Source of the DNA: Acidobacteriota bacterium | GTDB taxonomy: Bacteria > Acidobacteriota > Vicinamibacteria > Marinacidobacterales > Marinacidobacteraceae | Length of the DNA stretch: 64,000 nucleotides | Direction: 5' to 3' | Assembly (NCBI GenBank): GCA_009835985.1 | Contig: VXWI01000036.1 | Coordinates: 107,470-171,469 of the forward strand | Part shown: positions 7,020-9,438 of the stretch, piece by piece | Layout: every line of letters begins with the position of its first letter | How positions within the stretch are numbered: the first letter of the stretch is position 1 | Made by a program: the position numbers and the translations under genes | The notes under the pieces: model-generated | What the model was told of the DNA's origin: nothing | What the model saw: the letters and a program-made list of their open reading frames with translations, nothing else | Databases searched by the model: none

Positions 7020-7892
7020 TCAGCGGCGGGCGACCGGGTTCTCGAGGACCCCGGCCGTCTCGACCTCGACGGAGACCGTGTCGCCCTCGCTCATCGCCTG
7101 CGTGGTCCCCGGGGTCCCGGTGAAGATGACGTCGCCGGGCATCAGGGTCACGTAGCGGCTCACGTAGCTCACGATGTCGCTCGTGTCGAAGATCAGGTCG
7201 CTCGTCCGCTGCTGCTGGACGACCTCCCCGTTCAGCCGGGTGGTGAGTTCAAGATCGTCGTAGTTGACGCCGCGCGAGATCACCGGGCCGATGGGGCCGT
7301 AGGTGTCCGCCGCCTTGGCGCGGAACCACTGGAGATCGGCGCTCTGCCAGTCGCGTTCGCTGACGTCGTTGCCGGCGGTCACCCCGAAGATGTACTCCTG
7401 CGCCGCCTCCACCGGGACGTCGCGCGCCTCCTTGGCGATGACCAGCACCAACTCGCCCTCGTAGTGGACGTTGCCGGCGTCCTCGGTCATTTCGATGGCG
7501 TCGCCGGGGCCGACGATGCTGGTCGGCAACTTGGCGAAGACGCCGGGATAGGGCGCCGGTTCGCGCCCGCCCAGGTGCGAGGCGTAGTTGAGGCCGATGG
7601 CGATGACCTTGCCGGGGTCGGCCGGCGCCAGGAGGCTTGCTCCGTCCCGCGCCACCCGGTCTCCGGTGGGGGCGCCACCCGCCCAGGGCGCCGCGTGGAG
7701 CGCCACGATCTCATCGCCCTCGATCCGCCCCCAGGCCGGCGCGCCCGAGGCGTCCGCAAACCGCACGTACTCGCCGGCCGGCTGGTCGTCCACGGCGAGC
7801 GCGGCCGGCTCCATGGGCTCCTCGACGGGTGGAGCCCCGCAACCGAGCAGGAACGAGACAGCGATGAGGGTCAGGAAAACGGTTCTGGGCAC
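7020..7892 (-). CDS. fumarylacetoacetate hydrolase family protein with N-terminal lipoprotein-like signal
   Basis: VIAIGLNYASHLGGREP, IVGPGDAIEMTEDAGNVHYEGELVLVIAKEARDV, FTGTPGTTQAMSEGDTVSVEVETAGVLENPV; N-term MPRTVFLTLIAVSFLLGCGAPP. Confidence 0.88.
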   Translation of the reverse strand: MPRTVFLTLIAVSFLLGCGAPPVEEPMEPAALAVDDQPAGEYVRFADASGAPAWGRIEGDEIVALHAAPWAGGAPTGDRVARDGASLLAPADPGKVIAIGLNYASHLGGREPAPYPGVFAKLPTSIVGPGDAIEMTEDAGNVHYEGELVLVIAKEARDVPVEAAQEYIFGVTAGNDVSERDWQSADLQWFRAKAADTYGPIGPVISRGVNYDDLELTTRLNGEVVQQQRTSDLIFDTSDIVSYVSRYVTLMPGDVIFTGTPGTTQAMSEGDTVSVEVETAGVLENPVARR

Positions 7893-7938: not shown

Positions 7939-8358
7939 TCAAGGATTGAGGAGACGGCAGTTTCGGTTGCGGGCGACGATCTCGTACGCGGCGAGTTCGG
8001 CGAGCAGGAGAGGGGGCAGGACATAGGCGGCCACCACCAGGAAGCGGGCCGGAAGACCCGTCCAGCCGGGTGGGGCAGCGTGCAGGAGGAACCGGTTGAC
8101 CGCGAAGGCCCCGCCGTGGAACGTGCCGCGGGCGTCCCGGAAACGGACCCGCTTCTCGCACGCGCTCCGTGAAACGCCCAGTTGCCGCAGCTGGTCGTCG
8201 GTCAGTTCCTGATGCGCGACGAAACGGACCGGCCGGTCTTCCGCGAAGCGGGCCGCCGCGACCGCGGCGCGCGCGCAGAACCCTCAACCGCCGTCATAGA
8301 TGACGACGGGAACCCCATCCGCGAAACGTGCGTCCGGCCGGGGAGCGCCCGAACTCAA
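7939..8358 (-). CDS. DCC-family (DUF393) thiol-disulfide oxidoreductase-like protein, candidate selenoprotein: in-frame TGA at 8286-8284 replaces the first Cys of CxxC
   Basis: Read through TGA: ...RPDARFADGVPVVIYDGG[U]GFCARAAVAAARFAEDRPVRFVAHQELTDDQLRQLGVSRSACEKRVRFRDARGTFHGGAFAVNRFLLHAAPPGWTGLPARFLVVAAYVLPPLLLAELAAYEIVARNRNCRLLNP*. DCC families have YDGxCxxC here. TTG start at 8358 overlaps the upstream TGA stop (TTGA). Confidence 0.72.
8254..8269 (-). promoter_or_regulatory. bacterial SECIS-like hairpin downstream of in-frame UGA
   Basis: Minus strand CGCCGC-GGTC-GCGGCG, a 6-bp stem with GGUC tetraloop beginning 21 nt after the UGA; the E. coli fdhF SECIS also has a GGUC apical loop at a similar distance. 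Confidence 0.6.
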
Positions 8359-8639
8359 CTGAGATCGAGCCGGGGGGTGTCCCGTCCGCTTCCGTTGAAG
8401 CTGTTCTCCGGATACCGGCGCAGCAGCCAGACGCGAAAGATCCCCACGCCGAGCCCGATCAGCACGGTGCCGAGGAGCAGCGTTCCGGCGAGGGCGAAGG
8501 ATTCGAGGATGAGCGTCAGGATGCCGCGTTCCGGTTCCTCGCTCGGGAGCGTGACGTACTCGACGACCTGCCGCTGCTGGAGCATGGCCCGGGAAGCGAG
8601 GGAGTCGAGGAAACCGAACGGCTGGATCATTCCGGACAT
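8355..8639 (-). CDS. small single-pass membrane protein, hypothetical
   Basis: 94 aa with hydrophobic segment ILTLILESFALAGTLLLGTVLIGLGVGIFRVWLL; same strand and overlapping next gene by 4 nt. Confidence 0.65.
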   Translation of the reverse strand: MSGMIQPFGFLDSLASRAMLQQRQVVEYVTLPSEEPERGILTLILESFALAGTLLLGTVLIGLGVGIFRVWLLRRYPENSFNGSGRDTPRLDLS

Positions 8640-8670: not shown

Positions 8671-9438
8671 TCACCCGATGTTTCGGATTGTAGCGGGCGA
8701 CCCGGCTGGACTGGCGATGCGGTCCAGGGAACGGTGCAGGGAGCGTTCGATGCGCTCGGTCAGCGGCGCGGTGTCGAAGCGGAAGGCGCGCGACACGTCC
8801 TCGCGAATGCCCGGCGCGTCCTCCACCTCGAACCAGATCGGCGGCTGGTCGTCGGCAAGGGCAAAGAAGGTGAGCATCAGGTGCGCCACCCGGAAGTTGG
8901 CGCGTTCGAAGGGTGAGATCTCGAGGAAGCGGGCAAAGAAGAGCGCCGCGCGCGGTGCGGTTTCGAGATCGCGCCCGCTGGCGCCCGAGACCCACTCCAG
9001 GAGGTTGCCGAGCCGGAGCGCCACGGTCTGCGGCGGCGAGAGACCGGCTCCCTGAAACTGCGGTTCGATCTGTTGGGTGCGGAAGGGGCTTGCTCCGGCG
9101 AGGCCGGCGGAGACGGCGTGCAGCTCACCGATCAGCTCCTCGGTGGGGTCGCGTTCGGCGGCAGCGTTTCCGATGAGCCCGAGGGCCCCGAGGGCCGGAC
9201 CGAACGCGGGGGTTGGCGCACCCCGGCGCGCCGCCTGAATCTCCGGTTCGGTCAGGGCCGTCCCGGTCAGCTGCAGCGTCGCGCGGGCCGCCTCCACCAC
9301 CAGCTCCCCCCGGCCGGAACGCCACCGTTCGCTGCCGGTCTGCGCCCGGACCCGGTCGCGCCGCGCGCGGATTTCCTGTCCGGGCCCCTGGGGACGCGGC
9401 GCCCCCGTGCCCGGGTGAAGCGGCAGGGTCTCGCTCAT
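8671..9438 (-). CDS. Fic-domain-like protein with degenerate catalytic motif
   Basis: FFARFLEISPFERANFRVAHLMLTFFALADDQPPIWF aligns by eye with Fic core FHxxFexIHPFxDGNGRxaRLLLNLLLLxAGxPP; upstream FRTQQIEPQFQGAGLSPPQTVALRLGNLLEWV resembles Fic N-terminal region. Confidence 0.55.
   Translation of the reverse strand: MSETLPLHPGTGAPRPQGPGQEIRARRDRVRAQTGSERWRSGRGELVVEAARATLQLTGTALTEPEIQAARRGAPTPAFGPALGALGLIGNAAAERDPTEELIGELHAVSAGLAGASPFRTQQIEPQFQGAGLSPPQTVALRLGNLLEWVSGASGRDLETAPRAALFFARFLEISPFERANFRVAHLMLTFFALADDQPPIWFEVEDAPGIREDVSRAFRFDTAPLTERIERSLHRSLDRIASPAGSPATIRNIG

Follow-up and report, generated by a model that had tools for sequence, protein, structure and literature searches.

How is a TGA codon read when it interrupts an otherwise open gene at the very position of a catalytic cysteine? 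This question is raised by a gene on the minus strand (7939-8358) of a 64,000-nucleotide stretch of DNA (hereafter the window) from an uncultured acidobacterium. With its internal TGA (8284-8286) read as selenocysteine (Sec), the gene encodes a DCC1-like (PF04134) protein of 139 amino acids with Sec at residue 25, the U of DGG-U-GFC. It was overlooked by standard gene callers, and was first pointed out in a prediction made from the letters of the window, which took it for a candidate DCC-family (DUF393) selenoprotein. Judged by the comparative sequence analysis reported here, it is highly likely that the gene encodes a Sec-containing DCC1-like thiol-disulfide oxidoreductase.

The reading frame and its protein family

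Translation of the minus strand from 8358 to 7939 reads TTG...VVIYDGG-TGA-GFCARAA...VARNRNCRLLNP-TGA, with TTG (8358-8356) as the start and TGA (7941-7939) as the terminal stop. The only internal stop is the TGA at 8286-8284, and both the coordinates and the sequence given in the original prediction were reproduced. Searching the Pfam profiles with the read-through protein gave a match to PF04134 (DCC1-like thiol-disulfide oxidoreductase) over residues 19-133 with 43.3 bits (E 9.8e-11; gathering cut-off 27.8 bits), confirming the proposed family identity. The alignment spans profile positions 1-108 of 113, and the score is 31.9 bits with the stop left unread. The DGxCxxC motif of the family is kept as D22, G23, position 25 (with predicted Sec in place of Cys) and C28, the last being the putative resolving Cys of a UxxC redox motif (TGC, 8275-8277, minus strand). 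The coding likeness was said to run on to a C-terminal VARNR motif; it does so, and the motif can be refined to VARNR(N/H)C.

In an AlphaFold model built from 41 sequences (predicted local distance difference test score, pLDDT, 77), residue 25 forms the N-terminal end of the first helix, which follows a beta strand, an arrangement known from thioredoxin-fold enzymes; an earlier model with only seven sequences as input scored poorly (pLDDT 63). A fold search of the PDB with the model returned glutaredoxin and thioredoxin as the best matches, both weak (E 0.024, template modelling score about 0.35), and a sequence search of the PDB returned nothing convincing. An NCBIfam match to PrdB was rejected, as it covered the redox motif only and scored 15.9 bits (E 0.007) where the cut-off is 300.

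Conservation of the TGA codon and selection beyond it

Homologues were searched for in 100 relatives, the genomes compared being Acidobacteriota metagenome-assembled genomes; the genus of the window is represented by eight genomes, its own included. The gene is present in 8/8 of them with exactly one internal stop, which is TGA at the same codon in each, and the DCC proteins of the seven congeners are 82-95% identical to that of the window. Frameshifts or stops elsewhere, which would have spoken for pseudogenisation according to the original prediction, were found in none of the homologues within the genus. The orthologues of two sister genera in the same family (61% and 56% identity) have TGC at this codon and no stop, so that the proposed comparison of TGA and TGC in related genomes yielded TGA in all eight genus members and TGC in both sister-genus genes. 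The gene order hisF, Fic-like gene, small open reading frame (ORF), DCC gene, fumarylacetoacetate hydrolase gene and, on the opposite strand, M20 peptidase gene is common to the genus and largely to the Cys-bearing genera, and the DCC genes are therefore orthologues. Most likely, the Cys-to-Sec change (TGC to TGA, a single base) took place at the base of the genus.

An alignment of 41 sequences, composed of the genus members and other Acidobacteriota DCC1-like proteins and counting TGA as Cys, has five invariant columns: D22, G23, position 25, C28 and P115. Position 25 is Cys in 33/33 TGA-free members, placing the TGA on the first redox Cys as had been proposed. Beyond the TGA, the codon alignment of the eight species gave a mean of 0.436 synonymous (dS) and 0.056 nonsynonymous (dN) substitutions per site, and the resulting dN/dS of 0.128 (0.095 for the first 20 codons) reveals purifying selection. 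The region after the TGA is therefore translated and functional as part of the same protein, bearing out the earlier argument that continued coding speaks against an ordinary stop or a pseudogene. The recurrence of one frame with one shared TGA in 8/8 genomes, under such constraint, goes well beyond what chance would produce.

Four other explanations of the TGA were weighed against Sec insertion. The codon could be read by an ordinary near-cognate tRNA, or it could end a short regulatory peptide with an internal start downstream, since UGA is generally leaky and a leader of 24 codons is imaginable. However, the earliest in-frame ATG, GTG or TTG after the TGA lies at codon +32 or later in every species, and not until +66 or +83 in three; an internal start therefore cannot explain strong conservation that begins right after the TGA and includes the resolving Cys. 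A random residue inserted by a near-cognate tRNA would break a motif in which every TGA-free relative has its catalytic Cys, and these genomes possess Sec machinery and further Sec genes (see below), leaving this explanation very unlikely. Decay of the gene, with the TGA as a true nonsense mutation and the downstream frame as a relic, is formally compatible with a single in-frame stop. It is nevertheless highly improbable, as the same stop is found in eight species, the downstream dN/dS is that of a constrained protein and no second stop or frameshift has accumulated, whereas an old shared nonsense mutation would allow drift at a mean dS of 0.44. A sequencing or assembly error at the codon might be suspected because the window's own genome is a draft in 124 contigs, but the TGA stands at the identical codon, within diverged sequence, in seven other drafts from several projects. 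These seven congeneric genomes were assembled independently, which excludes a base-calling error and leaves an error of either kind scarcely conceivable. That UGA has come to stand for a standard amino acid throughout the genome, an idea for which no supporting point was found, has a negligible probability: TGA terminates the upstream gene in every species, where the alignment of that gene stops as well, the DCC gene itself uses TGA as its terminal stop in some species (TAA in others), and most homologues from the family searches lack an internal TGA.

A SECIS-like hairpin and the Sec machinery of the genus

Downstream of the UGA lies a hairpin (8254-8269, minus strand) resembling a bacterial selenocysteine insertion sequence (bSECIS), with a stem CGCCGC/GCGGCG of 6 bp and a GGUC loop (8263-8260), identical in the eight species. 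The loop starts 20 nucleotides after the UGA, and the stem-loop alone has a folding energy of -10.8 kcal/mol. The published bSECIS model comprises a loop of 3-9 nucleotides, a stem of 4-16 bp, a G among the first two nucleotides of the loop, a distance of 16-37 nucleotides from the UGA and an energy of -7.5 kcal/mol or lower (PMC13188914). All of these features were found in 8/8 genus members, and both Cys orthologues failed the model. The hairpin is located inside a run of seven successive codons (Sec+5 to Sec+11; 8251-8271, minus strand) without any nucleotide change among the eight species.

The machinery for Sec insertion is encoded in the same genomes. A tRNA-Sec was detected in the window's own genome with 69.7 bits (cut-off 47) and was also called by ARAGORN, with the anticodon tca; tRNA-Sec is above the cut-off in 10/10 genomes of the family, and SelA, SelB and SelD are above theirs in all ten. 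The search for selA, selB, selC and selD in the host, suggested together with the original prediction, thus found SelA, SelB (as a split gene), SelD and tRNA-Sec all present. Two further genes of the own genome, both of the peroxiredoxin superfamily (PF00578; G000:C74:7537-7926 and G000:C16:3594-4043), contain one in-frame TGA each and are probably selenoproteins of known kinds. One of the two proteins reads FFRSGGW-U-PFC and its gene has a hairpin CAACUC-GGC-GAGUUG, 21 nucleotides after the UGA; the second protein falls in a group represented in a sister genus by a copy with VADWTGG-U-TRQF. A SelW-like gene (PF10262) encoding CVV-U, with a loop of AGUCU or GGUCU 21 nucleotides after the UGA, was found in six congeners and both sister genera; no such gene was found in the draft genome to which the window belongs. 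Because the PF00578 and SelW-like genes carry in-frame TGA codons with hairpins, recoding of UGA at other sites in these genomes is very probable, and the hairpins there are spaced alike. In one sister-genus genome, we also observed an extra SelD with an in-frame TGA (G008:C204, 1531-1533), which makes it a selenophosphate synthetase of the Sec type, as well as an additional copy of SelA, beside a longer SelD-containing frame without TGA.

Several results weigh against reading the codon as Sec. The bSECIS model is passed by 17% of random window positions (1.1% if a GGU loop is required), and shuffles of this GC-rich sequence fold equally well (hairpin z about +0.5 to +0.9), the folding energy of a single sequence being uninformative where it is GC-rich. 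As a run of invariant codons, Sec+5 to Sec+11 is only moderately unusual (permutation p 0.009 for all codons and 0.04 for residue-invariant degenerate codons), the longest such runs in the neighbour genes being 6 and 4-5 codons, and an Rfam scan of the region returned chance matches only and none to SECIS. Given the 17% background, the shuffles and the lack of an Rfam match, the hairpin supports Sec insertion by its position, loop motif and conservation, not by its stability. In addition, selB of the own genome is divided between two contig ends. Finally, a TGA-bearing DCC gene was not found outside the one genus in searches of the class and the phylum: 106/193 genomes of the class have a PF04134 match (roughly 120 matches), with TGA only in the eight of this genus, and in a broader search of 396 genomes of the phylum no TGA was seen among the matches listed, which comprise the stronger ones only. 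No DCC homologue was found on plasmids.

Relation to known selenoproteins and gene neighborhood

In bacteria, Sec-tRNA-Sec is brought to the UGA by SelB, which binds a hairpin downstream of that codon. For the DCC gene, the ribosome would start at the TTG at 8358, coupled to termination of the small ORF upstream, and SelB bound to the GGUC hairpin would supply Sec-tRNA-Sec at the UGA. On the structural model, Sec would be the N-terminal attacking residue of UxxC at the start of the first helix in a thioredoxin-like fold, and, by analogy with other UxxC proteins, the selenenyl-sulfide formed during its putative redox activity would be resolved by Cys28.

Like other members of PF04134, the protein possesses DGxCxxC with the second Cys kept, the C-terminal ARNR and a predicted strand, CxxC and helix start in succession. 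It differs from them in having Sec for the first Cys, Gly-Phe between the redox residues and an insertion before the C-terminal helices, and its identity to the bulk of the family is 17-30%. Known bacterial UxxC selenoproteins of the thioredoxin fold include Prx-like thiol:disulfide oxidoreductase, Trx, Grx, DsbA-like and GOS_C proteins (PMC13188914), with which the DCC protein would share an attacking Sec, Cys homologues and a SECIS-like hairpin 16-37 nucleotides after the UGA, although it belongs to a different protein family. The SelW-like (PF10262) and Prx-like (PF00578) proteins of the genus are, unlike DCC, of already known selenoprotein families, and their loops are AGUCU and GGC at 21 nucleotides, compared with GGUC at 20 for DCC. 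In the SECIS of E. coli fdhF, too, the loop has a GGUC core, and its distance from the UGA is nearly the same; an equivalent of the bulged U of fdhF was not identified in the DCC hairpin.

Neither PF04134 nor DCC is among the 119 selenoprotein families of prokaryotes catalogued in 2026 (PMC13188914), and NCBIfam of June 2026 contains no DCC selenoprotein model. A full-text literature search, whose scope lay outside subscription papers and other GenBank annotations, found no paper linking selenoproteins or selenocysteine to DUF393, the DCC family or PF04134. We therefore conclude that DCC represents a predicted new selenoprotein family, in which a known thiol-disulfide oxidoreductase takes a Sec (UxxC) form, here restricted to one genus; bacterial UxxC selenoproteins as a kind are already well understood, and what is new is the Sec form of this known family. 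It is likely that, in one Acidobacteriota genus, a TGC-to-TGA change and the de novo appearance of a SECIS hairpin gave rise to this previously unrecorded prokaryotic family, with close orthologues of the Cys type sharing its gene order. A Sec-using form would thereby be added to a widespread and poorly characterised redox family, with position 25 indicated as its catalytic residue. Since the Sec and Cys versions occupy the same neighborhood in sister genera, the advantage that Sec confers and the acquisition of SECIS are directly testable by swapping the codon and the hairpin, and the locus, if the prediction is true, is a well-resolved example of how Sec entered a gene within a conserved neighborhood.

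The own genome and most congeners also encode a second DCC1-like domain, of the Cys type, within a longer frame of 518 amino acids (G000:C50:13509-13733 in the own genome).

Directly upstream of the DCC gene, a conserved small protein of 94 amino acids with a hydrophobic segment is encoded at 8355-8639 (minus strand). No Pfam or NCBIfam family was found for it; its identity is 89-97% among genus members and about 60-65% in the sister genera, and it is always directly upstream of DCC. It ends in a TGA that shares bases with the TTG at which the DCC gene starts (TTGA, 8358-8355), and the overlap is kept in 8/8 species, suggesting translational coupling with the small ORF as the coupling partner. 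Further upstream, and conserved there, a protein with a weak Fic/DOC domain (PF02661, 26.6 bits, barely over the cut-off) is encoded at 8671-9438 (minus strand). On the other side of the DCC gene, the frame at 7020-7892 (minus strand) encodes a protein of the fumarylacetoacetate hydrolase family (PF01557) that carries what looks like a lipoprotein signal (LLGC), and the sister-genus matches to this protein start only at residue 32-33.
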